A stretch of DNA of 24,410 nt from a virus. Shown one piece after another: positions 3,586-22,285 of this stretch. Each line of letters begins with the position of its first letter. Position 1 is the first letter of the stretch. The notes beneath the pieces were generated by a model that had not been told where the DNA came from, did not search any database, and saw only the letters and a list, made by a program, of their open reading frames with translations. The stretch lies in the IMG/VR virus record IMGVR_UViG_3300010885_053449, positions 1 to 24,410 of that record, one strand, 5' to 3'. The position numbers and the translations under genes were made by a program.

Positions 3586-4448
3586 AAAAGAAACCCCACA
3601 TCCCCACCACCCCCCAGATTCTGATGCTGCCCATCGACAGCATCACCGACCACCCAACGCTGAAGTATCTCCCGACGCTTGAGCAGGCGTCTGACATGGC
3701 GGCATCTGATGATCCCGATGACACGCCACATGGCGACTGGACCCGACTGGTGACCAGTATCCGTGAGACGGGGTTGATCGAACCCATCAAAGTGATTGCC
3801 AACCCTGATGGGGGATGGTGGTGCGTGGATGGCCGGTCCCGACTGGCTGCGGTGCGCGTCCTCAATTTCAGCCCTGATTGGAGAGGGATGACTGAGATTG
3901 CAGCCATCGCCGTCGAGGAGATTGACGTGGAGGTGATCGCAGAGGAGACGATGAGTCGCCGGAACGTGCAGAGTTTTGTGCGGGCGTACATGCATTGCCG
4001 CCAGCACCAGGACGTTCTGTGCGCGGGGAAGCGGGGTGGCGACAGGACCAAACTACCCGCGGGAACTTTGCTCACTCAGAAACAGTGCGCGGAGGCCTGC
4101 GGCGTCAGGAACGAAACCATCATCGCCTGTGTGGCGGCGCTGAAGCACTTCAGGGATCATCCCGCAGATCGGGAGAGGGATGAGCCGAAGATATTGGCAG
4201 GCATCATGCACCCCAACCGCTACGTTCACGCCGCCGCAGGCCGCGCTGCCACCGCCGGAAAAGACCGCCGCCCCACGAGTTTTGTGAGCTGGGCTCCGAA
4301 ATGGAAGTCCATGGTGAGCAATCTGAGAGGCTGGGAACAATGGGCCGAGGCGGACCGCGAGAACGCCAAGGCCCTCCTCGCGAAGGAAGCCGCCGAATGG
4401 CCAGAAGGCTTCAAGGCCATCGTCACTGAAATCCTCAACCCTCAGTAA
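3582..4448 (+). CDS. ParB-like N-terminal domain protein
   Basis: A 288-aa protein starting MKKKPHIPTTPQILMLPIDS. Residues about 14-92 form a ParB/sulfiredoxin-like domain: LPIDSITDHP, then LVTSIRETGLIEPIKVI and the signature VDGRSRLAAVRVL at 82-94. An insertion rich in Asp (ASDDPDDTPHGD) separates the first strand from the first helix. A second helix-turn-helix-like segment lies at about 164-190 (LTQKQCAEACGVRNETIIAC). It starts in an ATGA overlap with the upstream regulator, and its TAA stop overlaps the transposase ATG, so these genes are probably translationally coupled. It may bind DNA and help transposase or partition, or act as a ParB-fold CTPase or nuclease. The family is clear, the role is not. 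Confidence 0.75.
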   Translation: MKKKPHIPTTPQILMLPIDSITDHPTLKYLPTLEQASDMAASDDPDDTPHGDWTRLVTSIRETGLIEPIKVIANPDGGWWCVDGRSRLAAVRVLNFSPDWRGMTEIAAIAVEEIDVEVIAEETMSRRNVQSFVRAYMHCRQHQDVLCAGKRGGDRTKLPAGTLLTQKQCAEACGVRNETIIACVAALKHFRDHPADRERDEPKILAGIMHPNRYVHAAAGRAATAGKDRRPTSFVSWAPKWKSMVSNLRGWEQWAEADRENAKALLAKEAAEWPEGFKAIVTEILNPQ

Positions 4449-6226
4449 TGAGAGACTACATGGAGAGACAACGACTAGCTGCTGCCGTGGATGCGATCCT
4501 GTCCACGGACCCATCCCTCAGTGTCCGCGCGGCATGTCTGCGGGCCGGGGTCTCCCATGCGAGTTTCCTCCGCTGGAAAGCGGAGCCGAATCCTGACGAC
4601 AGGCCGGAGAAACCCCGGGGCCGTCCCGTGAAGTTTGCGCTCGCGGAATCTGATAGGCTCGCCCTCCGCTGGCTGGCGGCGTGGACGCAATCCACCCCGC
4701 TGGCGCTGGAGTACGCCGGCACGTGGGCGGAGACGGGCAACTGCCCATTGCCCTCTCCGCCACACCCCGCCCCTTCCGCCGAGCTGGGCGCACTGATCAG
4801 CGCGGAGCGGGCGCGGGGCGGGCGCTGGGATTCCCGGCTGCCGCGGGCCGTCATCGCGGCCTGCCGTCTCTCCGCCGGTGAACGCGCCATGATCCGCGGT
4901 CACAAGGCAGCGAACGACGGGGCCTTGTCCGTCCGCCGCGTTATGACGATCCGGGATTGGGACGCGGAGGGCGGCATCCGGGACATTCAGTTATTGGCAG
5001 GTTACGGATATGTGAGCGACGACGTTTCCATTGAACAGCCGTTCACTGCTGCCGGTCCTGACGGAACCGCCGTCAACCGCCAGTGCCTCGCCACCCGGGA
5101 CGTGTACAGCGGACGCTGGCTGGGGGTGATGGCGCTGAGCCGGGAAGGCGACGCCTACACGAAAGTGGACATCGCGGACCACATGTCCTCAGTGATCGCC
5201 GAATGCGGGCTCCCGTACTACTGGGCATTGGAGCGCGGCCCGTGGGAAAACGACTTCATCGACGGGGTCCGCGTGGAAGCGGGCTGGGGCCGGGAGGATG
5301 GCGAGCGGTGGGGTGGGCTGGACGCCATCATGAGGATTCGCCGGAAGTTCAAGCCCCAGCACAAGACAATCGAAGGAGGATTCGCCTATCTGCAATCCCG
5401 CCTCCGGGGCCGGTCAACGGGTGTCGGCAGTGAGCGGACTGGTGAGCTTGAGAAGGCAACCCGCATCGTGAGTGCCGCCAAGCGGGGGAACGAGGAGGCG
5501 CTCCGCGCCCTGTGGTCAATCGCCGATGCAGCCGATGAGGTGTGGGCACAGATGGAGGCGGACAACGCCAAGCCGAAGCACAGGGAATTCTTGTCAGGGT
5601 ACGCGGTGCCGAACGAGCTGTGGGCGGACACGTACATCCGCCGTGTAATCCCGACCGGGGACCTGTGGCGGTTGCTGCCCATCAAGACATGCCGGGTGGT
5701 GATCAAGCAGCGGGTCTCCATCACCCTGACAGGATACGGGCGGTTTGACTTCGCGGCCGTCAACGGTTCCCTCCCCCTCCTCGACAACGGGCACCGGCTC
5801 CTCGTGGCATTCCACCCGGGCCGTCCAGAGGAGGGCGCTCAGTTATTCAATGGCGAGGTCCGCAGCAGCCTGAACCGAGACGGCATCCGGTGGGGCGAGT
5901 ATCTAGGCACCGGCGAATACCTCGCCCCCGTGCCCATGGAGGACTTCACCGGCACCGGCGATCACTCCGCGCACAAAAGGGCACGGCAAGCGGTGCAGAG
6001 CGAGCTGCGCGCCGCGAAGGCGACGACTGGCGGAGTGGTGAGTGTGGCACGCCGGGCCGATGCCATGGGCCGTGTCCTCCAACACGCCACCGGCGGCACC
6101 GGCCGCCCAGACAGCGCCGCCACCCCAGCGCCGGAACCGCGCCGCTCCGCCCCATCCCTGGCCGAACTCCGCGCCCGCCGCGCCGCCGCCGCCGCCACCC
6201 CAGCCGACTGGGAAACCATCGCCTGA
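4448..6226 (+). CDS. Mu-type DDE transposase
   Basis: A 592-aa protein (MuA is about 660). An N-terminal helix-turn-helix is visible at about 24-44 (SVRAACLRAGVSHASFLRWK). The RNase H-like core lies at about 180-325: the first acidic pair VSDDVS at D191/D192, a following strand ATRDVYSGRWLGVMAL, the second catalytic position in YYWALERGPWEN, and the third in KTIEGGFAYLQ at E309. The second position, normally Asp in a D-N-G-type motif, reads Glu262 here. A Mu-type C-terminal beta-barrel region follows, with GEYLGTGEYLAPVP near residue 490. The last 60 residues are Ala/Pro/Arg rich, where the MuB-contacting tail lies in MuA. It would catalyse integration and replicative transposition. The start overlaps the stop of the ParB-like gene. 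Confidence 0.85.
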   Translation: MRDYMERQRLAAAVDAILSTDPSLSVRAACLRAGVSHASFLRWKAEPNPDDRPEKPRGRPVKFALAESDRLALRWLAAWTQSTPLALEYAGTWAETGNCPLPSPPHPAPSAELGALISAERARGGRWDSRLPRAVIAACRLSAGERAMIRGHKAANDGALSVRRVMTIRDWDAEGGIRDIQLLAGYGYVSDDVSIEQPFTAAGPDGTAVNRQCLATRDVYSGRWLGVMALSREGDAYTKVDIADHMSSVIAECGLPYYWALERGPWENDFIDGVRVEAGWGREDGERWGGLDAIMRIRRKFKPQHKTIEGGFAYLQSRLRGRSTGVGSERTGELEKATRIVSAAKRGNEEALRALWSIADAADEVWAQMEADNAKPKHREFLSGYAVPNELWADTYIRRVIPTGDLWRLLPIKTCRVVIKQRVSITLTGYGRFDFAAVNGSLPLLDNGHRLLVAFHPGRPEEGAQLFNGEVRSSLNRDGIRWGEYLGTGEYLAPVPMEDFTGTGDHSAHKRARQAVQSELRAAKATTGGVVSVARRADAMGRVLQHATGGTGRPDSAATPAPEPRRSAPSLAELRARRAAAAATPADWETIA

Positions 6227-6993: not shown

Positions 6994-8043
6994 ATGAGAT
7001 CAGACATCATTCCAGAAGGCACCGTGACCGCCCACATCGAGACCGCAGAAGAATCCGTTCGCCGCATCGTGCAGGATGCGGAGAACTGGCGCAAAAGCCG
7101 CGAGATGCCCCGGGTCCGTTTCATCGAACGATTCCGCAGTTACTTCGGCAGCAGCAAGACCTACAATCTCCTCCTCACCCGGCCGTCGGCTGAATGGGAG
7201 CGCCGCTCCCCGGAGAAATGGCTGAGCCGCCTGAGCGGGTTGCCGACGGCCCTGGCCGATGAGGATGCCCGGGGCGACGAAGGCGCTCTCATCGACCTGC
7301 CCCACACCCGCGTCTTCGCTGATGCGCTGCGGGCGCTCCGCCAGCAACGGGGCCTGCGCCGCGTTCTCCTCGTGGAGGGTGGCACGGGATCAGGCAAGAC
7401 ATCGCTCCTCGACTTGGCAGAGAGCCGGTTGGGGGAGGGCCGCAAGGTTGTGAGGATTCGCGGGAGGCAATCATGGGATAGCCTCCACGAGATGCTGGGG
7501 GATTGGCTCCATGCGCTGGGGGAAAAGGATCTGGGACCTACGACGGCCCGCCGTCACCGGCAGGTGAGTGATGCGCTGGCCTCGCTGGGGGATGCTATCA
7601 TCATGGTGGATGAGGCGCAGTACCTGACCGCCCGCGGCGTGAACTCTATCAAGGACTGGTGCAATGACATGGCGGAGCGCGGGAACGCAGTGCATTTCAT
7701 CCTGGGGGCGATGGATACCCTCTGGCGCAAGCTAACCGAAAGCGCCTCAGAGGAGAGCCGCCAGCTCCGCGTGAACCGCACGCTGGACGTACTCAAGCTC
7801 TCAGCGCCGGATGCGGCGGAGGTGCTGGACTTGTTGGGGGTGAGTCTGGACCTGAGCGGCTGGACGGACCGCGAGCGGCACGAGGTTTCCGGCAACCTGA
7901 GCCGGTTGAGCGAGACCGCTGGGTTGAGGGCCTTCGTCCGCGACGTGCGCTCCGCCGCGGCGGAGCTGGTGGATGAGGCGACGCCAGGGCTGATCGGGGA
8001 GATTTCCACGGTCATCGCGTCCAAAAACCGAACCCGCAGATGA
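6994..8043 (+). CDS. MuB-like AAA+ ATPase (transposition target protein)
   Basis: A 349-aa protein with Walker A GGTGSGKT at 129-136 and Walker B IIMVDEAQY at 202-210. A downstream stretch, AVHFILGAMDTLWRKL, is typical of the sensor-1 region of AAA_22/MuB-like ATPases, and RQLRVNRTLDVLKL resembles the region after it. The roughly 110 residues before the Walker A hold a helical domain with a basic helix (MPRVRFIERFRSYFG) where MuB carries its DNA-binding appendage. MuB proteins form ATP-dependent filaments on DNA, stimulate the transposase, direct it to target DNA and give target immunity. The start follows an A/C-rich leader (CCCAACCCAATCCCCCACAC). It is slightly longer than Mu B (312 aa). 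Confidence 0.85.
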   Translation: MRSDIIPEGTVTAHIETAEESVRRIVQDAENWRKSREMPRVRFIERFRSYFGSSKTYNLLLTRPSAEWERRSPEKWLSRLSGLPTALADEDARGDEGALIDLPHTRVFADALRALRQQRGLRRVLLVEGGTGSGKTSLLDLAESRLGEGRKVVRIRGRQSWDSLHEMLGDWLHALGEKDLGPTTARRHRQVSDALASLGDAIIMVDEAQYLTARGVNSIKDWCNDMAERGNAVHFILGAMDTLWRKLTESASEESRQLRVNRTLDVLKLSAPDAAEVLDLLGVSLDLSGWTDRERHEVSGNLSRLSETAGLRAFVRDVRSAAAELVDEATPGLIGEISTVIASKNRTRR

Positions 8044-11313: not shown

Positions 11314-13002
11314 ATGGCAACGTGGCTCAACAAACCAACGCCTCACGCTGAGGCGGCGAAACAGATCCGGGGCCTCGCCCCCGTGGACCGGGCAACTTTC
11401 GACAGGCTCCCGGATGAGTTCAAGGCATCGGCATTTTTGATCACGGGGATCGCCGCCCATGACGTGCTCCAAGATGTGAGGGACATGATCGCCGTGATCC
11501 CGGAGGGTCAGGACTTCGAGGAGACCCAGCTACGGGTTGCCGCGCGGTTGCTCCCGTACTTCGGAGGGCGGGAGAAATCGGCGCTGGCCCGCGCCAAGAT
11601 CCTGACGAGGGCGACGGCCTTCCGCGCATACAACGCCGGCATCCACCAGAGTCTGGAAAACTCCACGGCGGCATTCCCGTTCAGGAAGCGGCTGGCGGTG
11701 ATGGATGAGCGGACGCGGGATTCACACAGGGCCATGGACGGGATCACGCTGCCGGCTGGCTCGCCATTCTGGCGCAGTCACACCCCACCGGATGCGCACA
11801 ATTGCCGGTGCTATGTGATAGGCGTGAGCCGTGCGGCAGCGGAGCGGATGAAGCGTGAGGACGATGCGAAGATCAAGGCCGGGAAGCTGCTGCCGGAGCG
11901 GAGGCGGGTGTTGGAAGGGCTGCCGCTGAAGCAACTCGAAAGCGGTATCCTCAATCGGGGCCTGAGCGAGCAATGGAATCTCAATCAGGAACCGGGACGG
12001 GTGCAGTGGGACCCATCCACGCTGATGATGCCGATGGAGGCCGTGCGGCAGCGGTATGATGCGCAGACGTGGAGCGACTTCGAGGGGTGGGCACGCGGTC
12101 AGGACATCGCGGGGCTGAGTCTGTGGGACTGGCTGGCTGGCCAGCGCCCTGCCGGCACCACGCCGCCGCCGCCTCCGGTGAAGCCACCAGTGACGCCTCC
12201 ACCGGCGCCGGTGGCACCGTCCAAAACGCCAGCAACGCCACCACCGGCACCCGCTCCGACGGGGAGGACGGCGGATCAGATCACGACGGCGGTCCAACCA
12301 ATCGTGCAGCGGCTGAGGGAGGCGAGGACGCGGAAGATGGAGCCGGAGGAGTTGGCAAAGATCAATGCCGAGGCGCTGGCGACGATTCAGCTATCAACGG
12401 CAGAACGAGGGACATGGGACATTAAGGTGGCGAGGACGTTGAGCGGCAGACGCAAGGCAAACAGGGAGATGGAGAAGAAGATGAAGGAGGCGTCGCGGTT
12501 GCTCGCCACAGTGCTGCACCCGTCTCTCTTCGCGGCGAATACCACAGTAGCCGAAACCGATTCTCTGCGGGCGGAGTGCGTTACGATTTCCCGGTTCGAC
12601 CCCGTCACCCGGACGAAGGTGATGGTGGCAAATGAGATCAGAGCCCACATCAGCCGTCCGATCCGCACGCTGATCCACGAGGCATGCCACGCAGTGGAAA
12701 CGATGAGTGACGTGTATGAGTCCATGGTGGCCTTCCGAGCTAAGCGGACCGCAGGGGAATCCCTCCAACAGCTTAGGAAACTGTACCCTATGATGAACTA
12801 CGGGCCGGGGGAGGTGGCGTGGGAAGATGAATGGGTGAAGCGCGGAGGGTCGCACTACAGCGGAAAGAAGTACCCTGACTCATGGAGAGCGACGGAGATT
12901 TTCACAAAGGGAATGGAACGGTTGATCTTGGAGACGGCGGAGTTCGCCGCCGATGATCCGGAGTATTTCGAGGCAATCCTCAAAGCAGCCCAAAAACTAT
13001 GA
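11314..13002 (+). CDS. MuF head protein fused to a zincin-like metalloprotease domain
   Basis: A 562-aa protein. The N-terminal 175 residues hold the MuF head-morphogenesis domain: MDERTRDSHRAMDGITLPAG at 130-149, then PPDAHNCRCYVIG at 158-170 with the typical H-x-C-R-C. A proline/threonine-rich linker occupies about 279-318. The C-terminal domain carries IRTLIHEACHAVE with H455-E456-x2-H459, and RATEIFTKGMERL with E528, 68 residues later, as the likely third zinc ligand: a gluzincin-like site. MuF proteins are minor capsid proteins injected or placed near the portal in Mu-like phages, and some carry C-terminal toxin or effector domains. The fused peptidase may cut a host or phage target after entry. 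The gene overlaps the next by ATGA. Confidence 0.8.
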   Translation: MATWLNKPTPHAEAAKQIRGLAPVDRATFDRLPDEFKASAFLITGIAAHDVLQDVRDMIAVIPEGQDFEETQLRVAARLLPYFGGREKSALARAKILTRATAFRAYNAGIHQSLENSTAAFPFRKRLAVMDERTRDSHRAMDGITLPAGSPFWRSHTPPDAHNCRCYVIGVSRAAAERMKREDDAKIKAGKLLPERRRVLEGLPLKQLESGILNRGLSEQWNLNQEPGRVQWDPSTLMMPMEAVRQRYDAQTWSDFEGWARGQDIAGLSLWDWLAGQRPAGTTPPPPPVKPPVTPPPAPVAPSKTPATPPPAPAPTGRTADQITTAVQPIVQRLREARTRKMEPEELAKINAEALATIQLSTAERGTWDIKVARTLSGRRKANREMEKKMKEASRLLATVLHPSLFAANTTVAETDSLRAECVTISRFDPVTRTKVMVANEIRAHISRPIRTLIHEACHAVETMSDVYESMVAFRAKRTAGESLQQLRKLYPMMNYGPGEVAWEDEWVKRGGSHYSGKKYPDSWRATEIFTKGMERLILETAEFAADDPEYFEAILKAAQKL

Positions 13003-13265
13003 TAGTCACATTCCGAACACCAGAAGGGCCGTTCCGGCTCCGCGGCAAAAAGATCACTGGTCCCGACGCTGACAGCATGAGGAGAGTGCAGGCATTCCTT
13101 GATGCCGCGCACGAGGCCGGAGCAGGCCCTCACGACAACGACGGCACGCTGGCTGAAAAGGCGCTTCGCCGGGCGGGATTCGAGGTCATCCATTTTGAGG
13201 TACAGGGAGAGCCTGACGCGGCGGGGGAGGATGTGGTGCAGGTGGACGAAAGCGAGATGGAGTGA
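12999..13265 (+). CDS. Small acidic protein, candidate inhibitor of the MuF-fused protease
   Basis: An 88-aa protein starting MIVTFRTPEGPFRLRGKKIT. A short beta N-terminus is followed by helices (ADSMRRVQAFLDAAHEAG, TLAEKALRRAGFEVIHFE) and a very acidic tail (EPDAAGEDVVQVDESEME, 8 acidic residues of 18). It starts inside the stop of the MuF-zincin gene (ATGA), so the two are translated together. In phages with MuF toxins the cognate immunity gene often sits directly downstream. That position plus the small size and acidic tail make an inhibitor role possible, but no sequence motif proves it. Confidence 0.55.
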   Translation: MIVTFRTPEGPFRLRGKKITGPDADSMRRVQAFLDAAHEAGAGPHDNDGTLAEKALRRAGFEVIHFEVQGEPDAAGEDVVQVDESEME

Positions 13266-13267
13266 CC

Positions 13268-13813
13268 ATGATCCCGACGATCATTCACGAGAAAGCTCTG
13301 AGCCTGGCGATGCGGGTCAGGGATGAGGTGCAGCCGCTGTGCGATTCGGTGGAGATCGTGGGGGCGGTGCGGAGGATAGAGGCGCAGATAGGGGAGATAG
13401 AGCTGGTGGCCATCAAGGCGAGGAACAGCGAGAAGGAGTGGCACCGGCTGGCGTGGTCTCTGGCGGGGGCTGACGGCGATGTGTTGGGCATGGGGGCGCA
13501 GGTGTGCCGCATCATCCTCCGGCGCTCCAAGATCCCTCTCAATATCTGGTTCGCTGATCACGGGGTGATGGGGGATCTGGTGGTGCCCACCATCCCCGGG
13601 AACTGGGGAGCGATGATGATTTCCAAGACGGGGCCGGAGAGTCACCTCCGGATGATAGAGGAGACGGCGGCGGCCATGGGGTGGAGCTGGCGGCCATCGC
13701 GAGGGCTGATCATCCCCGGGGAGGGAGACCGGGTGGACATCGTCTCCGCGTCTGAACAGGCGATTTATGAGCGGCTGGGGCTGCCGTTCACCCCGCCCTT
13801 CGAGCGGGCCTGA
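13268..13813 (+). CDS. PolX-like nucleotidyltransferase with altered active site
   Basis: A 181-aa protein starting MIPTIIHEKALSLAMRVRDE (a GTG 6 bp upstream is an alternative). The layout follows DNA polymerase beta palm and thumb domains: VEIVGAVRRIEAQIGEIELV at 28-47, where PolX has GSxRR...GDxD; IPLNIWFA at 89-96, where PolX has the third catalytic Asp; WGAMMISKTGPESH at 113-126, where PolX has FTGS; and DIVSASEQAIYERLGLPFTP at 157-176, a thumb motif. The serine reads Ala33, the first two acidic positions read Glu43 and Glu45, and the third reads Asn92. Catalysis is therefore doubtful. It may have a structural, regulatory or changed nucleotidyl-transfer role. It sits within the head operon. 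Confidence 0.6.
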   Translation: MIPTIIHEKALSLAMRVRDEVQPLCDSVEIVGAVRRIEAQIGEIELVAIKARNSEKEWHRLAWSLAGADGDVLGMGAQVCRIILRRSKIPLNIWFADHGVMGDLVVPTIPGNWGAMMISKTGPESHLRMIEETAAAMGWSWRPSRGLIIPGEGDRVDIVSASEQAIYERLGLPFTPPFERA

Positions 13814-13849
13814 CTTGATTTCCCCCGCAGCCCGCCGCATGATAGGCGC

Positions 13850-14344
13850 ATGCAACTCACCCTGAGCGCCAATGACCTCATCTCACCGAACATCCGGAAG
13901 ATGGCGGCCAAGCTGGACGGCGGCGGGAGGAAGGCGGTGCTGACGGTGATGGGGGATGCGCTGAGGTATTGGGCGATGGAGAGTTTCACGGATGAGGAAA
14001 AGCGGCCCGCCCCGTGGGCGGACAAAATCGACGGGACCCCATCCACGCTCCAATCTGCCAACCCTACGCTCCGCCGGAGTCTCCGGGTGGAGGCATCCGC
14101 TAACGAGGTGGTGGTGGGCAGTGACCGGCCGTATGCGCTCATTCACCAACTGGGAGGCGAGATCAGGCCGAAGACGGGGACGCTGCTGAGGTTTCAATCC
14201 GGCGGGGTCTGGTTTTCGGTTAAGAAAGTGACGATGCCGGCACGGCCCTACCTGCCGATCACGAGTGCGGGTGGGCTGATGGCGGGGGCGGCGGAGGAGA
14301 TCGCCGCGGTGGCACTGGCGCAGATCGCAGAAGAACGGCGCTGA
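13850..14344 (+). CDS. Virion morphogenesis protein (Mu gpG family)
   Basis: A 164-aa protein starting MQLTLSANDLISPNIRKMAA. The region RPYALIHQLGGEI at about 93-105 is the hallmark of the phage virion morphogenesis family (PF05069), and the downstream MPARPYLPIT is the conserved Pro-Ala-Arg-Pro-x-L. The order MuF, G, I and T is kept as in Mu. In Mu, gpG is needed for head-tail joining and is thought to act as a tail-completion or joining protein. Only an unusual unrelated gene pair lies between MuF and G. Confidence 0.8.
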   Translation: MQLTLSANDLISPNIRKMAAKLDGGGRKAVLTVMGDALRYWAMESFTDEEKRPAPWADKIDGTPSTLQSANPTLRRSLRVEASANEVVVGSDRPYALIHQLGGEIRPKTGTLLRFQSGGVWFSVKKVTMPARPYLPITSAGGLMAGAAEEIAAVALAQIAEERR

Positions 14345-14392
14345 CTATGCGCCACCGTTGCGTCCGGCGCGTCATGCGCTTCTGGCGCATAG
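14345..14392 (+). repeat. Perfect 10-bp inverted repeat between G and I genes
   Basis: CTATGCGCCA at 14345-14354 pairs with TGGCGCATAG at 14383-14392, leaving a 28-nt loop that holds further GCGC-rich pairs. It fills most of the 63-bp gap between the G-type gene and the protease gene. There is no T tract after it, so it is not a normal terminator. It may be an mRNA stem that stabilises or separates the transcripts, or a protein-binding site. Confidence 0.5.
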
Positions 14393-14407
14393 GGCGATGG
14401 TGCGGGA

Positions 14408-15472
14408 GTGAAGAGACAATCCCCAGCCACCACACCCGCCGCGGCACCCGCCGCCGCCATCATCGCCTGCGGGGGCGGTGGGAAACTCACCCCCGGCGGC
14501 ACGCTGCCGAATGAGCTGGTGCTCTGCCCATGGGGAATCCGGAGCACTCGCAAGGGACGGTTCGAGGTGGGGGCTCACACGCTGGCTGTTTTCTCGCAAC
14601 GTCAGGCGGCGATGCGGCGCGACATGGTGGCGGGCGACTTCGAGCACGGCACGCTGAAGAAGGAGGACCCGGTCCGCGTGGCCTGCTATGGCGTCCCCCG
14701 TGTTGTCGAGGGCGTGGGCATCGTCGCTGACATTAATCACTGGACGCCGGACGGGAAAGAATTCGTGGGCGGCGGGCATTACCCTGACATTTCCCCGGCT
14801 TTGGAAGTGAACGCCGCCGGTCAGGTCATCGGGCTCCACTCCTTCGCGTTCTGCCGACATGGCGAAATCGCCGACGACTCGCTCCAAATCTTTTCTGCTG
14901 ACTCCCAACCCCAAATTATGAACCTGCTAACGTTGCTCAATGCCGTTCTCGCCGCCCTGTCCATCCCACCCGTCAAGGACAATGCCACCCCTGAAGATCT
15001 TGCGGCCGTAATGGCGCAAGCCACCGCCGCGGCGAAAGCCAAAAGTGAGACGGAGGTGGAGGTGGAGCCGATGTCCGCGGATGCTGACAAGATCACTCCG
15101 ATCCTCGCCCCGCTCATCACCGAGGTGCGCAACCTGCGCGCCGACGTCGTGGCCCTCACCGCTGCGGACACCACCCGCAAAATCGACAACCTCCTCTCCG
15201 CTGCCAAGGCCGCGGGAAAGGCCATCGGCCTGAAGCCGGCAACCCTCTACGCCATGGGCGCGGATGCTGTTACTGAGTACCTCGACTCCCTCCCCGAAAA
15301 TGCCGTCCCGCTCCAAGGAGCCAACGGCGGCACTGGCACCCAAAGCGCGGCGGATGCGAAGGTGGAGGCGTTCAGCGCGGACCAGAAAGCAATGTTCTCG
15401 CGCATGGGCATGACTGCCGAGGAGGTCGCAAAAGCGGCCGAAGAAATGCACGGCGTGAAGCTCTCCGTCTGA
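14408..15472 (+). CDS. I: Capsid maturation protease with C-terminal scaffold (Mu I family)
   Basis: A 354-aa protein from the GTG at 14408. Residues about 35-165 resemble Mu-like prophage I protein: PNELVLCPWGIRSTRKGRFE, then VEGVGIVADINHWTPDG, HYPDISPALEVNAAGQVIGL and HSFAFCRHGEIADDSLQIFS. From residue 171 the sequence changes to a helical, Ala/Glu/Lys-rich scaffold with MSADADKITPILAPLI and RKIDNLLSAAKAAGKA, and a C-terminal helix (AEEVAKAAEEMHGVKLSV). In Mu the I protease cuts itself and the scaffold Z, which is made from an internal start in the same gene. Location just before the decoration and capsid genes fits. The GTG start is less sure than the family. Confidence 0.75.
   Translation: MKRQSPATTPAAAPAAAIIACGGGGKLTPGGTLPNELVLCPWGIRSTRKGRFEVGAHTLAVFSQRQAAMRRDMVAGDFEHGTLKKEDPVRVACYGVPRVVEGVGIVADINHWTPDGKEFVGGGHYPDISPALEVNAAGQVIGLHSFAFCRHGEIADDSLQIFSADSQPQIMNLLTLLNAVLAALSIPPVKDNATPEDLAAVMAQATAAAKAKSETEVEVEPMSADADKITPILAPLITEVRNLRADVVALTAADTTRKIDNLLSAAKAAGKAIGLKPATLYAMGADAVTEYLDSLPENAVPLQGANGGTGTQSAADAKVEAFSADQKAMFSRMGMTAEEVAKAAEEMHGVKLSV
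14918..15472 (+). CDS. Z: Internal-start capsid scaffold (Mu Z-like)
   Basis: An internal ATG in frame with the protease, at protein residue 171. It would yield a 184-aa scaffold starting MNLLTLLNAVLAALSIPPVK. The DNA just before this ATG (ACTCCCAACCCCAAATT) has the same A/C-rich character as the leaders before many unlinked genes here, which makes independent initiation likely. The coiled, Ala/Glu/Lys-rich composition fits a scaffold. The scaffold would line the procapsid and be removed by the protease. The start is inferred, not shown. Confidence 0.6.
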   Translation: MNLLTLLNAVLAALSIPPVKDNATPEDLAAVMAQATAAAKAKSETEVEVEPMSADADKITPILAPLITEVRNLRADVVALTAADTTRKIDNLLSAAKAAGKAIGLKPATLYAMGADAVTEYLDSLPENAVPLQGANGGTGTQSAADAKVEAFSADQKAMFSRMGMTAEEVAKAAEEMHGVKLSV

Positions 15473-15504
15473 TCCCAATCAACCAACCCTGACAATTCCA
15501 TTTT

Positions 15505-15918
15505 ATGGCCACCACCACAGCCGCATACCCCGCCGCCCCGCAAGTCGGGTTTGACCGCGGGACCTTCGGAGTCAAAGCCAACATCCGCATCGACGAGGGC
15601 TCTCTCGTCATGATCGACACGACCGCCGGCACTGCCGAGGGCGCTGAGCCCATGGCGTCCCAACGCTGCATCGGCTGGGCTGCTGAGCTGGCGGATAACA
15701 CTGGCGGAGTGGCATCAGCCGTCCGCGTCACCGTCACCACTGAGACTGCCAGCTTCGAGAACTCGACTGTCACCCCAGTCACCGCGGCGATGGTTGGTTC
15801 ATCGGTCTGGGCAGAAAGCCCCACCACCGTCAAAGGCTCCGCCGGCACCAACCCCGTTGTCGTCGGGACACTGTTTGGTTTTGCTGCCGATGGGCGGCCC
15901 ATCATCCGGTTCGTCTGA
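15505..15918 (+). CDS. Capsid decoration/head-fibre protein (DUF2190-like)
   Basis: A 137-aa protein starting MATTTAAYPAAPQVGFDRGT. It is small, beta rich and Ala/Thr/Val rich, with repeated short strands (ASAVRVTVTTETASFENSTV, GTLFGFAADGRPIIRFV). It lacks charged helices, and its IDEGSLVMIDTTAGTAEGAE segment resembles DUF2190-type decoration proteins. It stands between the protease/scaffold and the major capsid protein, the usual place of a decoration protein. An A/C-rich leader precedes the ATG. Confidence 0.65.
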   Translation: MATTTAAYPAAPQVGFDRGTFGVKANIRIDEGSLVMIDTTAGTAEGAEPMASQRCIGWAAELADNTGGVASAVRVTVTTETASFENSTVTPVTAAMVGSSVWAESPTTVKGSAGTNPVVVGTLFGFAADGRPIIRFV

Positions 15919-15951
15919 GCCGCATCCCACTTCAACTCAATCCTATCATTT

Positions 15952-16890
15952 ATGATCATCAATCGAAGCAATCTGCGCTCATTCCAGTTCGCTCTGGACA
16001 CGGCGTTTTCCAAAGGGCTGGGCATGACCACAACTGGCGAGGGGGCTGTTCACCAGATCCTCTGCCACGAAAAAGAAGTCATCGGACGCAAGGAGGGTGA
16101 GTACCCATGGCTGGGTGCTAGCGGCAAGATCCGTGAGACGACGGGCACGAAGGAAAAGGTCAAGCTCCCGCTCAACCGGGTGCGAGTCCGGAACGGGAGG
16201 TTCTCGCTCCTCATCGCCATCGACGAGGAGGATCTGGAGTGCGACGAAGAGGGCCTGTACAAGGACCAAGCGCAGATGTTTGGGACTGAGGCGAGCGATC
16301 ACTTTGAGGACGAGGCGGCGAAGGTTCTGGCGGCTGGATTCAGCACGAAGGACTACACCGGCTCCAACTTCTTTGCCGCAAACAAGAACGTCGCCCCCGA
16401 CCTTGGGGCGAAGAGCGCAAAGTTCACTAACTTCGTCACGAAGAAGTTCAGCACGGCAAACTATGCAGCCGCCGTCGCCAGCCTCCGCACCCGGACCGAC
16501 GCGAACGGGAAAAACCTTGGGCTTGGGAATCAGGGCTTCACGCTGATCGTGGGGCCGAATGCTGAGGCGGACGCAAAGGTGGCCATTCAAGCGACTCAGG
16601 GAGCGAATGGTGCCACCAACGTCTGGTCCGGTACCGCCAAGCTCCGCGTCTGGAACTGGCTGCACTCGTACCTGCCTGACTCATGGTTCCTCGTGGCCAA
16701 TACCGTCACAGGGACCCGCCGCCCGCTCATCAAGCAGATCGGGAAAAAGATCAGCTCGCGCATGACGGGCACGGAAGACGTCTCCGCCATCATCGACGGG
16801 GAAATCCTGTACGAGCTCTACGGCCGCCACCGCATCGCCTATGGCGACCCCGCCCTCATCTACGGCAGCGATGGTTCCACCGCTGCCTGA
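15952..16890 (+). CDS. T: Major capsid protein (Mu gpT family)
   Basis: A 312-aa protein, close to Mu gpT in length. Recognisable segments are MIINRSNLRSFQFALDTAFS at the N-terminus (SNL and fold start), YPWLGASGKIRE, VRVRNGRFSLLIAIDEEDLE, AANKNVAPDLGAKSAKFTNF, and near the end SWFLVANTVTGTRRPLIKQI and DGEILYELYGRHRIAYGDPA. It belongs to the Mu-like prophage major head subunit gpT (PF10124) with an HK97-type fold. It assembles around the scaffold from the upstream gene. A hairpin directly follows the gene. The A/C-rich leader before the ATG contains CAACTCAATCC. Confidence 0.85.
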   Translation: MIINRSNLRSFQFALDTAFSKGLGMTTTGEGAVHQILCHEKEVIGRKEGEYPWLGASGKIRETTGTKEKVKLPLNRVRVRNGRFSLLIAIDEEDLECDEEGLYKDQAQMFGTEASDHFEDEAAKVLAAGFSTKDYTGSNFFAANKNVAPDLGAKSAKFTNFVTKKFSTANYAAAVASLRTRTDANGKNLGLGNQGFTLIVGPNAEADAKVAIQATQGANGATNVWSGTAKLRVWNWLHSYLPDSWFLVANTVTGTRRPLIKQIGKKISSRMTGTEDVSAIIDGEILYELYGRHRIAYGDPALIYGSDGSTAA

Positions 16891-16910
16891 CCAATACCCA
16901 CCAAAAACTA

Positions 16911-16958
16911 GGGGCCGGGGACGAATCCTCTCCGGAGGCTGATTCCCCGGCCCCGCTT
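16911..16958 (+). terminator. Hairpin after the capsid gene, probable terminator or attenuator
   Basis: A perfect 11-bp inverted repeat: GGGGCCGGGGA at 16911-16921 and TCCCCGGCCCC at 16944-16954. A smaller stem (CCTC with GAGG, 16927-16938) lies in the loop. The outer stem is followed by GCTTT, then C residues, so the T tract is short. It sits 20 bp past the capsid stop and before the gp36-like gene. A partial terminator that leaves more capsid than tail mRNA is a reasonable reading; RNA stabilisation is an alternative. Confidence 0.6.
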
Positions 16959-16969
16959 TCCCCCCCACA

Positions 16970-17425
16970 ATGGCCCGCCCCATCCTGTACTGCACTGCCG
17001 CTGAGCTTCTCGCCAAGATCCCCATGGCGGATCGGGATGCCGCCGTGGACGATACTGGCAGCGGGGTGCCTGACATGGCCCTCTTAGATGAGGTCATCTC
17101 GCAGGCCTGCGACGAGGTGGATACATTTTACGCGATCCGCGGGGTGACGGTGCCGCTCAACCCGGCCATCGAACCGCTGGCCAAACAGGCGGCGATGCAC
17201 ATCGCGATTGAGACGCTGTACACCCGCCGCGGAGAAGATCCGACGCGGAACCCTCACCACAAGAGTCTGGAGCAGATCCGGGGATTGCTGGGACGGGTGG
17301 CAGACGGGCGGCTGTCTGTGGCATCGACGCTGCCCAATGCGTCATCCGAAATCGTGGGGCAGGTGGTGAGCGTGGAGGGCGAGCCCGCCCTGACGTATCC
17401 CGGCCCGAACCGAATCTTCATGTGA
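16970..17425 (+). CDS. DUF1320 protein (Mu gp36-like)
   Basis: A 151-aa protein starting MARPILYCTAAELLAKIPMA. The YCTAAELLAKIP start, the ALLDEVISQACDEVDTFYAI segment and the AMHIAIETLYTRRGE helix are typical of DUF1320 proteins (Mu gp36). These lie just after the major capsid gene and are thought to be head-tail connector or completion components. The C-terminus (VASTLPNASSEIVGQ) is short. The gene follows the post-capsid hairpin and precedes a gp37-like gene, matching Mu order. Confidence 0.75.
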   Translation: MARPILYCTAAELLAKIPMADRDAAVDDTGSGVPDMALLDEVISQACDEVDTFYAIRGVTVPLNPAIEPLAKQAAMHIAIETLYTRRGEDPTRNPHHKSLEQIRGLLGRVADGRLSVASTLPNASSEIVGQVVSVEGEPALTYPGPNRIFM

Positions 17426-17432
17426 CCTGACC

Positions 17433-18023
17433 ATGCTGGCCGAAACCATCAACCGTCTGAGGACTGCACTGACGCCTCACATCGACGCCTCCGGCGGGGA
17501 GCTGATGCTGGCGACAGACCGCATGGATGCACTGATGCAGGCGGTGGCCTCTCTGAGCGCACGCTGGCAGATGATCATCTGGCTCACTGGCACGCCGCCA
17601 TCCTCCCGAGAGGATGCGCGCAGCGGGCGCATCAATCTCGAAATCCACGTGGTTGTCTGCCGCCGCCCGTCACTCCCCGCCGTCCGTTCCCTGACAACGA
17701 CGGATGAGACGGATGCCACCAGCCTTTACCGCCTCTGGGATGAGGTGCGCGGCATCATCCACCGGGTGCGGTTTGGCGACCTGATGAGGGACGAAGCGGG
17801 GCTCCTCCACTTCATTCCGCGCAACGGCTTTTTGGCTGCCGAGAACCCGATGGTTCTCCAATCCATCGCCATCACGCGGGAGTACATGGAGGTCAAAAAG
17901 CCTGACTCCAAGCCATCCTACAAAGAGCTTCTCTGGGCTCAATCCTCATGGATATGCCCGGTCTCCGCCGCCGTGGCGATGCCCTCCGGCACCGCCATCG
18001 AAGACTGGTGGATTTCCGCATGA
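17433..18023 (+). CDS. Tail-terminator/completion protein (Mu gp37-like)
   Basis: A 196-aa protein starting MLAETINRLRTALTPHIDAS. It has the helix-strand pattern of Mu gp37/DUF1834-type proteins: an N-terminal helix, ARSGRINLEIHVVVCRRPSL as a central strand, then a helix with SLYRLWDEVRGIIHRVRFGD, and ENPMVLQSIAITREYMEVKK as a last strand. Position right after DUF1320 and before the tail tube agrees with Mu order. The last 25 residues are unusual, being hydrophobic (SSWICPVSAAVAMPSGT). Role inferred by position and fold pattern. Confidence 0.6.
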   Translation: MLAETINRLRTALTPHIDASGGELMLATDRMDALMQAVASLSARWQMIIWLTGTPPSSREDARSGRINLEIHVVVCRRPSLPAVRSLTTTDETDATSLYRLWDEVRGIIHRVRFGDLMRDEAGLLHFIPRNGFLAAENPMVLQSIAITREYMEVKKPDSKPSYKELLWAQSSWICPVSAAVAMPSGTAIEDWWISA

Positions 18024-18055
18024 TCACTCAACCCTGATTTTAACCCTATCACACC

Positions 18056-18679
18056 ATGGCCAGACAATACACAGGCAATCCTTTAGGAGACCTCACCAAT
18101 CCCAGCATCGTCCTCGCCCCCGCATCGGAATTTGTGCTGGTGGAGGGAAATGCTCACGGCACCAAGGCGCGCATGGGCACCGGGTGGTTGGGGATCAACG
18201 GCACCGTTGGCACCGTGATCAAGGCAAGCGCCAAACTGATGGGCGACATCAGCGAGACGGCCGATGGAGCCTCCGGCACGCGGGCGATGTTCAGCAAAAA
18301 AAACGGGGTGGAGATGGAGCTGGAGCTTCAGCATGACCGGGGATTTCCCAGCATCCAGAAACTGGACAGGTTCCGCGTTTGGGTGGACATCGGTCAGGAC
18401 GTACCGTTCCTGGCCACGTGCATCGTGACTGAGGTGAGTGCCGATAAGGGGGACGATGAGACCGCCTCCATCAAGATCACGGCGCAGTACAAGCCTGGCT
18501 TTTCGACGGCAACGTCGATGTATCGTGCGGTGTTGGACGAATTCGGACGCGTCGTCTCCTTCGAGGCTGCCACGAAGTTTGCGGCCGGCAACACGCAACC
18601 CGGCGTACTGCCCGCCGATCCGCCCGCGCTCAGCAGCACGCCGCCTGTCGGCAACACGAATCCCGGCATCGGCATCTGA
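18056..18679 (+). CDS. Probable tail tube protein
   Basis: A 207-aa protein starting MARQYTGNPLGDLTNPSIVL. It is beta rich, with internal strands (GVEMELELQHDRGFPSIQKL, FRVWVDIGQDVPFLATCIVT, DETASIKITAQYKPGFS) that resemble tube proteins. It lies between the completion gene and the chaperone/tape-measure genes, where the tube is expected. No tail-sheath gene lies beside it. The C-terminal 35 residues are Pro/Asn/Thr rich and repeat the pattern GNTxPG twice. A stretch of eight A residues (18296-18303) lies in the gene but a -1 slip would stop soon. Tube by position and composition. Confidence 0.55.
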   Translation: MARQYTGNPLGDLTNPSIVLAPASEFVLVEGNAHGTKARMGTGWLGINGTVGTVIKASAKLMGDISETADGASGTRAMFSKKNGVEMELELQHDRGFPSIQKLDRFRVWVDIGQDVPFLATCIVTEVSADKGDDETASIKITAQYKPGFSTATSMYRAVLDEFGRVVSFEAATKFAAGNTQPGVLPADPPALSSTPPVGNTNPGIGI

Positions 18680-18691
18680 CCATCCTGACGC

Positions 18692-19111
18692 ATGGAATCC
18701 ATCCGCCAAGACATCCGGGAAGCGGCGCTCCGCGTGCAGGCTGGCCTGTCACCAACGGCCGCCTACACGACTCCATCCAATTACGAGGTGGGGCTCCTCA
18801 CCGAATCCGGCGCGGAGGTCTCCACCTCCGGCACCGGTTATGCGCGGCGGACTATCAGCAGCACGGGATTCTTCGCCGTCGGGGATTCTCCGCTGGGGAA
18901 CAAATGGGTGACCAACACGGGCACCATCCGGTTTCCCGCCTCCGGATCTGCGACGCTATCGTGGGGAGCCATCAAGCATGTGGCTTTGTGGAAAACGGGC
19001 GAGAGCGAGCCGCTGTTCATCTTTTCGCGAGACGACTCCGAAAGCGTGCTGACGGGTGGGAGCTACACAGTGGCCCCGGACGATCTGCAACTCCTGGATA
19101 ACATCATCTGA
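18692..19111 (+). CDS. Minor tail protein (gp80-like pattern)
   Basis: A 139-aa protein starting MESIRQDIREAALRVQAGLS. It carries a pattern frequent in small phage tail proteins: a strand with VGLLTESGAEVS, then GYARRTISSTGFFAV, then TGTIRFPASGSATLSWGAIK with HVALW. This matches the Y-V-x-L-x-T...GYAR...F-P-A...W-G-x-V-x-H architecture of the Gp80-like family, though at low identity by eye. It overlaps the next gene by TGATG and follows the tube gene. A structural role in the tail is likely. Confidence 0.55.
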   Translation: MESIRQDIREAALRVQAGLSPTAAYTTPSNYEVGLLTESGAEVSTSGTGYARRTISSTGFFAVGDSPLGNKWVTNTGTIRFPASGSATLSWGAIKHVALWKTGESEPLFIFSRDDSESVLTGGSYTVAPDDLQLLDNII

Positions 19112-19704
19112 TGGGCGCTCACTCCGCGTGGAACTACTGGCTGCCGCGTGCCACCGGGAATCCGGTGCTGACCGTGGCAGCCAGTTATTCCCTGCGGGCA
19201 GGTGGAACGGTTGAGTACGTGGGTGGGGTGCCGGGTGGACGGGTGCCGAGCGGCAATGTGATAGTGCTGGCAAGGCCGGACATGTTCCGGATGGACACGG
19301 AGACAGACGAGCCCGCGGCCTATCTGCCGATGGAGCGGAGGAACTGGGGCACCGCATGGGCGACAGCGGAAATCGGGTGGGGAGAGGTGCTTTCGGTAGA
19401 GGCTCCGATGAGGGCGGAGGCAGGCAGCCACAGGACAGCGGTGGGGCAACTGGTCGGAGGATGGGTGGAAGATCCGGAGGGAATGATTACGGTGCGGTGC
19501 ATCGTGGAAATGGCGACGGCTGACGATCTGCCGGAGACGGGCGATCACTTTTTTTACAGCGGCAAGAGGTACAGCGTAACGGAGGTGGTGCCTGAGGACG
19601 CCATGGGGGAGAGCAAAACACTGACGGTTTCCGGCCGTCATTGGCCGAACTGCAACCGCACCATCACCCCGCCCAATCTGCCGTCACCCGGCAGCCTGAT
19701 CTGA
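19111..19704 (+). CDS. Unknown tail-module protein
   Basis: A 197-aa protein starting MGAHSAWNYWLPRATGNPVL. It is beta rich and rich in Trp and Gly: GGTVEYVGGVPGGRVPSGNV, NWGTAWATAEIGWGEVLSVE, GMITVRCIVEMATADDL, and YSGKRYSVTEVVPEDAMGES near the C-terminus. It overlaps the previous gene by one base (TGATG). Position before the tail chaperone suggests a minor tail or tube-associated protein. No family is recognised. Confidence 0.55.
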   Translation: MGAHSAWNYWLPRATGNPVLTVAASYSLRAGGTVEYVGGVPGGRVPSGNVIVLARPDMFRMDTETDEPAAYLPMERRNWGTAWATAEIGWGEVLSVEAPMRAEAGSHRTAVGQLVGGWVEDPEGMITVRCIVEMATADDLPETGDHFFYSGKRYSVTEVVPEDAMGESKTLTVSGRHWPNCNRTITPPNLPSPGSLI

Positions 19705-19709
19705 TTTCC

Positions 19710-20321
19710 ATGAACAAGCAACCACCCCCCACTATCACGAGTCGCGAACTGGCCAATCAGGCCATGCAGGCCAATCGCGCCGCCCGCCTAAAGGCATCCG
19801 AACGAGGAGGTCCGGAGACGGAAATGGAAATCCTGTTGGCCGCGCACGAGCCGCCAGAGATCGCGGCTGGTGAGCTGAGCTGCATGTCGGCTGGCATCGC
19901 TGAACTCATGAGGCGGAGGCGGATGATTGAGGAAGAGATCACGCCGGAGGAGCTCATCTACATCTTTCGTTACCCGGTCTCGGCTTGGGCCTATCTCAAG
20001 CAGATCAAGGAGCCTCAACAGACGACATCGGAGGAGTGGAAGTGCGAGATCTTCACGCTGTCCTTGATGCTGGACAAGCAGGCGCTGGAGCAGTGCTCCG
20101 CGTGGGTCACTCGCGAGCTGCACCATTTTTTCGGCTTGCCGGAGGCGAGCCCTCCGGAGGAGCCGAGTCAGCCTCAAGTGGATGCGAGGGCAGTAGAGCC
20201 GGATGGTGGATGCGAGCCGTCGAAGGCATCCTCGCCAATTACGGACACAGCGTCCCTGCCGGTGCCGATCCCGTGCGATGGGCCGTCTGGAGATTCCCCC
20301 TCAACTCCTACCTCGCCCTGA
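19710..20321 (+). CDS. Tail assembly chaperone, short form (G-type)
   Basis: A 203-aa protein starting MNKQPPPTITSRELANQAMQ. The core is helical (LMRRRRMIEEEITPEELIYI, FRYPVSAWAYLKQIKEPQQT, CEIFTLSLMLDKQALEQCSA). After residue 141 the composition changes to a low-complexity Pro/Ser/Glu tail (EASPPEEPSQPQ, then SSPITDTASLPVPIP), as expected when translation passes a frameshift site without shifting. It stands directly before the tape measure, the standard place of tail chaperones. With the -1 frame at 20132 it gives the long form. Chaperones of this kind bind the tape measure during tail assembly and are not in the mature virion. Confidence 0.7.
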   Translation: MNKQPPPTITSRELANQAMQANRAARLKASERGGPETEMEILLAAHEPPEIAAGELSCMSAGIAELMRRRRMIEEEITPEELIYIFRYPVSAWAYLKQIKEPQQTTSEEWKCEIFTLSLMLDKQALEQCSAWVTRELHHFFGLPEASPPEEPSQPQVDARAVEPDGGCEPSKASSPITDTASLPVPIPCDGPSGDSPSTPTSP

Positions 20322-20440
20322 TGCCCGCGGCGCTTGAGAGAGCCGGGGTGGAACTGCCAAAACACTACGCCATCCGCGAGGGTCTCTCCGCCGCTAACGC
20401 ACTCAAGAAGGCCACCCGCAAAACCCACACCGTGATCTAA
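19710..20440 (+). CDS. Tail assembly chaperone, -1 frameshift long form (GT-type)
   Basis: Joined reading: 141 codons from 19710 to 20132, then -1 with the C at 20132 read again, and 102 codons to the stop at 20440, for 243 aa. The second part reads RLAGGEPSGGAE at the junction, then a normal-looking domain starting MRAVEGILANYGHSVPAGAD and continuing VRWAVWRFPLNSYLALMPAA. It ends with basic NALKKATRKTHTVI. That domain has better composition than the zero-frame tail and its stop lies just before the tape measure start at 20444. This is the lambda G/GT-type layout, also proposed for Mu gp41. Confirmed only by sequence reading. Confidence 0.75.
20126..20157 (+). promoter_or_regulatory. -1 programmed ribosomal frameshift signal
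   Basis: The slippery heptamer T-TTT-TTC at 20126-20132 is in the correct phase for the chaperone frame (CAT TTT TTC). It is followed by a 6-nt spacer (20133-20138) and a 7-bp G/C-rich stem: CCGGAGG at 20139-20145 and CCTCCGG at 20151-20157 with a 5-nt loop. Slippery site, spacer, stem and a long open -1 frame together match a working frameshift signal. Confidence 0.8.
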
Positions 20441-20443
20441 GCC

Positions 20444-22285
20444 ATGGCCAGTTGGACCGCTGCACTCAAGCTCACCCTCAACTCCAGCTCCGTAACGGCT
20501 GGACTGCGGACGGTGACGGGAGGGATCGGTGGGGCCATCAACTCCATGGGCAAGCTGGCCAGCGCCGGCACTGCGGCGGGCCAGCGCATCGCTGGCGCAC
20601 TCAAGGGCGCTGGCGACGTGCTGTGGAAACTCCCTCAGCAGGCGCAGGCCTTGGGTGGCATCCTCGCAGGCATTTCCGGTCCAATGCGGCTGGCGGCTGA
20701 GGCGGAGAGCACAGCGGTAGCGTTTGGTGTGCTGGTCGGTTCTGCGAAAGAGGCGGAGAGGGTGCTGGCGGATCTGAGGAAGATCGCGGATTCGTCCCCG
20801 TTTGGCTTCCAAGAGGTAGCGAGCGCGGGCCGAAATCTTGCGGCCTTTGGCATTGAAGCCCGCGATGTGGCGGCAGTCACCGGAAAGCTGGCGGATGTGG
20901 CATCTGGCGTGGGGGCACCCCTGACGGAAATCGCGCTGTTGTACGGCAAAGCGCGAGTCTCGCAGAGGCTGATGAGCGAGGACATTGACCAGTTCATTGG
21001 CCGAGGCGTCAACATCCTCGAAATCCTCGCGAGCATCACAGGCATTGCCGCCGGTCAGATTCGGAACATGGCCAGCGAAGGTAAAGTCACTTTCCCCCTT
21101 TTGGAGCAGTCCATTAACAAGCTGACCGTGGCTGGGGGGAGGTTTTCGGGGATGATGAAGACGATGAGTGAGACAACAGAGGGACGGTTCTCCTCGCTCA
21201 AGGACGCCATCGACGGAGTGCTCATTAAGCTGGGTACTCCGATCAACGACGCGCTCCGGCCCCTAATGGTGGACTTGGCGGGGATGGCAGATGGACTGAA
21301 ACCGAAGATGGAAGCGATTGGGAATGCGCTCAGGGATGCGTTAAATTACGGATTCCAAATCATCCGGGACGGGAAAGTGGGGGATCTTGTGACCGGTGGA
21401 TTGAGGGCGGCCGCGCTGACGTTTTCCGAGCTGATGATGAAGGCGCTGGATCTGGTGCAACAGAAGCTGAAACAGCTCGCCATCATTCTCAAGGCGTCAC
21501 TCACCAATGACGTGCAGGGAGGCTATGAGGCGGGACTTCGGTTACAGGAACTGGACGCAAAAGGTCTAGGAGCATCGAACCTTGGAGACCCAAACATCAA
21601 CGCGGAGGCGGAGCAGGCCCGGTCCGCATACAAGGCCCTGACTGCGGAAATCAGCAAGTCCGCTCAGCAGGCGCAGGCGAAACGCACGGCTGATGAGCAG
21701 GCAGGCAGAGCCAAGAGAGAGGCGGACAACGAAGAGGCCAAGGCCAAGGATCTGGCAGCCAACGTGGCGAGGAGCACCGCGGCCATCGAAGCGCAGAGGA
21801 AGCGGCAGGATGCGATGACGGGTCTGAAGGGGGGGGCGGCGGCCGCTACGAGATTCGCCATGGGGACCATCGGCAACCTGACGGCCCGGACAAAGGCTGG
21901 GAGGGATTTGTTGGGAGCGCCGGTGGATAACGGCCGTGGGAGGTTCTCCGACTTGGGCAACATCCAGAGCCGGTATTTGTCAGCGGACCGAAAGACGAGG
22001 GGCTCATTCGACGAGTTTGCAAAGAAGTCGATGGGTATGAATTTCGATAAGCTCAGCGTGGGCGAGCGTGCGGCCGTCAAAGCCGCCGATCCGACCATGG
22101 GAGGCAAGGTGCAGCCCGGCAGCCGAGCGGACCGGCTGGCAGCCATTCAGCAAGGGCAGGAACGGGCCAAGGCCGCCGTTGCTGGGCAGAAGGAGGAAAG
22201 CGCGAATTTCCAGAAAGCAGCCATGGCCGTCCTTCAGGCGCTTCCTAGCATGGAGAAGAACATTGCAAGACTCGCCGCCCCATGA
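20444..22285 (+). CDS. Tape measure protein
   Basis: A 613-aa protein starting MASWTAALKLTLNSSSVTAG. Residues about 85-235 match the phage tape-measure domain: AESTAVAFGVLVGSAKEAER, VLADLRKIADSSPFGFQEVA, ARDVAAVTGKLADVASGVGA and LMSEDIDQFIGRGVNILEIL. The central part is helical with long Ala/Glu/Lys stretches (about 400-470), and the C-terminus is again helical. There is no lysozyme or peptidase motif. Using about 0.15 nm per residue it would set a tail near 90 nm. It follows the chaperone gene by 3 bp and overlaps the next gene by ATGA. Confidence 0.8.
   Translation: MASWTAALKLTLNSSSVTAGLRTVTGGIGGAINSMGKLASAGTAAGQRIAGALKGAGDVLWKLPQQAQALGGILAGISGPMRLAAEAESTAVAFGVLVGSAKEAERVLADLRKIADSSPFGFQEVASAGRNLAAFGIEARDVAAVTGKLADVASGVGAPLTEIALLYGKARVSQRLMSEDIDQFIGRGVNILEILASITGIAAGQIRNMASEGKVTFPLLEQSINKLTVAGGRFSGMMKTMSETTEGRFSSLKDAIDGVLIKLGTPINDALRPLMVDLAGMADGLKPKMEAIGNALRDALNYGFQIIRDGKVGDLVTGGLRAAALTFSELMMKALDLVQQKLKQLAIILKASLTNDVQGGYEAGLRLQELDAKGLGASNLGDPNINAEAEQARSAYKALTAEISKSAQQAQAKRTADEQAGRAKREADNEEAKAKDLAANVARSTAAIEAQRKRQDAMTGLKGGAAAATRFAMGTIGNLTARTKAGRDLLGAPVDNGRGRFSDLGNIQSRYLSADRKTRGSFDEFAKKSMGMNFDKLSVGERAAVKAADPTMGGKVQPGSRADRLAAIQQGQERAKAAVAGQKEESANFQKAAMAVLQALPSMEKNIARLAAP

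Follow-up and report, generated by a model that had tools for sequence, protein, structure and literature searches.

Does the gene that immediately precedes the tape measure gene in a virus with Mu-type head genes encode one tail-assembly chaperone or two? The stretch of DNA analyzed here, 24,410 nt from IMG/VR record IMGVR_UViG_3300010885_053449 (positions 1 to 24,410; hereafter the window), contains at this position two overlapping reading frames, the second displaced by one base and joined to the first at a heptamer of the kind on which ribosomes slip. On the combined evidence we put the probability at roughly 90% that one gene yields two tail-assembly chaperones from one start codon through a -1 frameshift. 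Comparative evidence supports the joining of the chaperone to its -1 extension by this route.

Organization of the chaperone locus

All features of the locus are on the plus strand. The zero-frame open reading frame (ORF), which probably encodes a gpG-like tail-assembly chaperone of 203 aa, occupies 19710–20321, beginning with ATG 19710 and ending with TGA 20319–20321; its first 141 codons would be common to the frameshift product. The candidate slippery heptamer, T TTT TTC (20126–20132), lies in zero-frame phase as X XXY YYZ, with codons TTT (20127–20129) and TTC (20130–20132). It is followed by a 6-nt spacer, GGCTTG (20133–20138), and a putative stimulatory hairpin at 20139–20157, consisting of a perfect 7-bp stem, CCGGAGG/CCTCCGG (20139–20145/20151–20157), and a 5-nt loop, CGAGC (20146–20150). 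The gpT-like extension in the -1 frame is 102 codons long (20132–20440, stop TAA 20438–20440), and its first ATG is at 20210. Past the slip site the zero frame continues for 62 Pro/Ser-rich codons (20133–20321); its TGA falls within the codons for ALM of the -1 frame. The phase of the heptamer, the spacer, the stem and the length of the -1 frame are all as an earlier sequence-only reading of this DNA had described them; the same reading had placed the -1 stop 4 bp before the tape measure start, and there are 3 nt between TAA and ATG 20444.

The tape measure protein (TMP) gene directly downstream (20444–22285, 613 aa) is identified by PF20155 (TMP_3, E 7.5e-23) and by PHROG tape measure families, and upstream of the chaperone pair are the genes for the gpT head protein, an adaptor and other virion proteins. 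Strict in-phase heptamers occur 12 times in the 5850 codons of the window's listed genes, and the one at 20126–20132 has the strongest downstream fold among them. Only about 0.02% of the 32-nt segments in 11314–22285 are as stable as the 32 nt that follow it, and the hairpin, outer pairs included, is predicted at -20.0 kcal/mol.

The arrangement suggests the following course of events. Most ribosomes would stay in the zero frame and produce the 203-aa gpG-like protein. A minority would pause at the GC hairpin, a plausible stimulator 6 nt downstream of the heptamer, with tRNA-Phe in both the P and the A site on T TTT TTC, and would slip back one base, where both tRNA-Phe could re-pair fully with TTT TTT. 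These ribosomes would produce a 243-aa gpGT-like fusion made of the 141 shared residues and a 102-residue helical extension. For this locus we infer the slippage event, the slippage efficiency and the chaperone function of the products.

Selection on the -1 frame in a close relative

A 32.7-kb viral contig from an independent metagenome (IMGVR_UViG_3300033076_001440, hereafter L003) encodes a TMP 81% identical to that of the window, and the protein neighboring the chaperone (19111–19704 in the window) is 89% identical. The heptamer is identical in L003 (5685–5691), as are all 14 of the 14 stem bases; the spacer keeps its length of 6 nt with one change, the loop has two changes, and both stops are retained. 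In the comparison with relatives that the sequence-only reading had proposed as a check, heptamer and stem are thus kept while the bases around them change. The 32 nt after the L003 heptamer are matched in stability by about 0.1% of windows, and the L003 hairpin fold has a z of -3.30.

The two sequences differ in a pattern that follows the -1 frame. Base changes at -1-frame positions 1/2/3 number 8/9/25 in the overlap, and 2/3/14 from the heptamer to 20206, so that 14 of the 19 changes at 20133–20206 are at third positions. The -1 frame has 10 amino acid changes in the overlap where 24.8 are expected, and 3 where 10.5 are expected from the heptamer to 20206; in both cases none of 5000 permutations gave as low a number. 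The zero frame behaves differently on the two sides of the site. Upstream (19980–20125) it is conserved, with 25 amino acid changes against 33.8 expected, whereas from the heptamer to 20206 it is unconstrained (15 against 11.3 expected), and its entire tail after the site (20133–20321) has 29 changes against 26.8 expected, giving no sign of selection at the amino acid level. Identity to L003 amounts to 34 of 63 positions for this tail and 85 of 103 for the -1 frame, stops included, in agreement with the earlier description of the former as low-complexity Pro/Ser sequence and the latter as a real domain. From its pattern of purifying selection, the -1 frame is evidently an expressed coding sequence; because it is selected at the protein level before ATG 20210, its translation has to begin well before that codon. 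A change-point scan places the switch between frames only to about 20082–20102 and does not single out the heptamer, because a block of identical bases occupies 20082–20102.

The stem gives a modest sign that it is itself kept by selection: none of its 4 third positions has changed, whereas 14 of the 21 surrounding ones have (Fisher p = 0.026). RNAalifold detected no covariation in the stem between these two sequences, and with a single close relative in the collections the conservation of the stem comes down to 14 bases that have stayed the same; there is no compensatory change.

Family and structure searches

The chaperone of the window has no match to a Pfam or PHROG chaperone family, and a sequence search of solved structures returned nothing relevant to it. 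Searches for relatives of the chaperone, by protein and by alignment, covered 142 related genomes, 388 genomes of the phylum, viral contigs, genome contigs and phage records, and recovered L003 plus weak matches (E 0.003–0.008), three of which are interrupted by stop codons; a search with the gene neighboring the chaperone recovered the same contig only. In the AlphaFold model of the extension, a 20-residue linker leads into a predicted domain of four helices (mean pLDDT 63); Foldseek found no match for the extension in BFVD at E ≤ 0.001. The model of the 141-aa common domain is weak (pLDDT 45).

Distant relatives found through the tape measure gene

Because the chaperone is too divergent for direct searching, a tape measure alignment was used as the query against 384 genomes of the class, which, the window's own contig aside, gave 19 matches. 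At 11 of these 19 loci, a zero/-1 pair of frames lies upstream of the TMP gene, and the two frames meet at a strict in-phase heptamer. Before the slip site the zero frame encodes 119–155 residues, and the -1 extension that follows is 73–84 aa long. The heptamers themselves are diverse: AAAAAAG (L014, L020, L024), CCCAAAC (L017, L021, L023), GGGAAAA (L025, L027), AAAAAAC (L030), AAACCCT (L016) and CCCTTTA (L031). L027 has a weak match to the tail assembly chaperone family PHROG 33493 (E 0.012). At two further loci, L022 and L026, the TMP gene is preceded by a zero/-1 pair that has no strict heptamer; slippage there may take place at a different sequence, or the pairing may not be real. After codon shuffling, an average of 1.6 and a maximum of 6 of the 13 pairs have a strict heptamer, against the 11 observed, a figure that serves as a guide rather than as a clean test because the 13-locus set was assembled after the pairs had been seen.

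The fused products of these relatives can be aligned with that of the window. In hhalign, the fused profile of the window and L003 reaches a local score of 37.1 against the fused relatives over 147 columns, crossing the junction, while 60 column shuffles gave 17.3 at most. The extensions of the window and the relatives have a common GW..-L-PL-R pattern. It is possible, and in our judgment an evenly balanced matter, that the slippery heptamer has been repeatedly replaced (at least seven kinds) while -1 chaperone frameshifting stayed fixed in phages of this bacterial class, and that the zero-frame product in the lineage of the window acquired its Pro/Ser tail of 62 unselected residues through overprinting of the extension.

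Alternative explanations

The -1 extension could instead be a separate protein, made by internal initiation or reinitiation without any frameshift. Its start could be ATG 20210 or a codon other than ATG, for example GTG 20102, and both of these codons are present in the window and in L003. Against this, the -1 frame is strongly selected over the 75 bases that precede ATG 20210. The internal starts are without a convincing Shine-Dalgarno sequence; the GGAG 11 nt before GTG 20102 is GGAA in L003. Internal initiation would also leave unexplained the heptamer and hairpin, the heptamers of the 11 relatives, and the alignment of the fused products across the junction, and we consider it improbable.

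The T6 run could also cause RNA polymerase to slip, and an mRNA that had gained or lost a base there would encode the same fusion. A run of six bases is short for transcript slippage, and the non-homopolymer heptamers of the relatives, for example CCCAAAC and GGGAAAA, fit tandem tRNA slippage. This origin of the fusion is therefore very unlikely here, even though a homopolymer run together with a hairpin can favor transcript slippage in some systems (PMC5009743). Finally, the source contig is one fragment of a draft assembly of 128 contigs, estimated to be 75% complete, and an indel introduced during assembly could split a single intact gene into two frames. Such an error is hardly credible in view of L003, an independent contig in which both frames are open to the same stops, and of the 11 distant relatives with the same architecture.

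Comparison with known tail-chaperone frameshifts

Tail chaperones in many phages undergo frameshifting of the lambda type (PMC5009743; Xu et al. 2004, as cited in PMC4378225). For the Mu-like siphophages of the D3112 group, the heptamer T TTT TTC has been reported in the genes for tail assembly and contrasted with the -2 frameshift of Mu (PMC4378225). The D3112 group (Casadabanvirus) combines Mu-type head genes with a siphovirus tail, as the window phage apparently does. In D3112 itself T TTT TTC is in phase, identical to the heptamer of the window and with the same residues, FF|R, and the extension likewise ends just before the TMP gene (by 2 nt). The zero-frame stop in PaMx73, a member of this group, is 43 codons past the site (PMC4378225), compared with 63 in the window. 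The chaperones of D3112 and the window have no detectable sequence homology (hhalign probability 0.8%), and the fold downstream of the D3112 site is unlike that of the window.

The lambda slippery heptamer is GGGAAAG and differs from the T TTT TTC of the window. As further differences, the zero frame of the window runs 63 codons past the slippery sequence, which has a clear GC hairpin after it. As in lambda, the -1 slip would come near the end of the chaperone gene, with the tape measure gene next downstream, and would give a major product that is short and a minor one that is long (PMC5009743). In lambda, G and GT share the part that binds the tape measure, and the extension of GT recruits the tube protein (PMC5009743). 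By analogy, the common part of the window products may coat the TMP and the extension may recruit the tail-tube protein, and the ratio of the short to the long product would matter for assembly. Phage Mu likewise has Mu-type head genes, and its tape measure gene is preceded by a chaperone pair joined through frameshifting; this pair is produced by -2 slippage (PMC5009743) and the Mu tail is contractile, in contrast to the -1 site of the window, where the interval from the head genes to the TMP gene has no gene of sheath size.

The sequence-only reading had presented the locus as the lambda G/GT logic reproduced in a Mu-type phage. The -1 frameshift is supported, but its presence in such a phage is no surprise: since T TTT TTC was reported in the D3112 group (PMC4378225), both the frameshift logic and this heptamer in a Mu-headed phage had already been published. 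The site is well supported as a new instance of a known mechanism, not as a new mechanism, and it leaves the understanding of tail assembly unchanged. What it does provide is a corrected annotation, one gene pair with two products, in a poorly sampled group of Mu-headed phages. As a site that is well supported and has a clear hairpin, it is also useful, together with the heptamer variants of the relatives, for the training of frameshift predictors.

Mu-like and siphovirus-like features of the window phage

The designation "Mu-type phage" given earlier holds demonstrably only for the head module and a transposition gene; the tail appears to be siphovirus-like. The head module of the window contains Phage_Mu_F, Mu-like_Pro (protease I) and Mu-like_gpT, and a DNA transposition protein (PHROG 296) is encoded at 6994–8043. 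The interval from the major head gene to the tape measure gene (16890–20444) contains no ORF of sheath size, and the tail is therefore apparently non-contractile, which would fit a siphovirus tail like that of D3112. The 592-aa protein encoded at 4448–6226, upstream of the transposition ATPase, has no Pfam or PHROG match at E ≤ 0.01; it occupies the position where a MuA-like transposase is expected. Between the F and I genes of the head module, 13262–13813 encodes a 183-aa protein that is odd content for a head-gene cluster. The C-terminus of this protein matches the DNA polymerase beta thumb (PF14791, E 3.7e-7).
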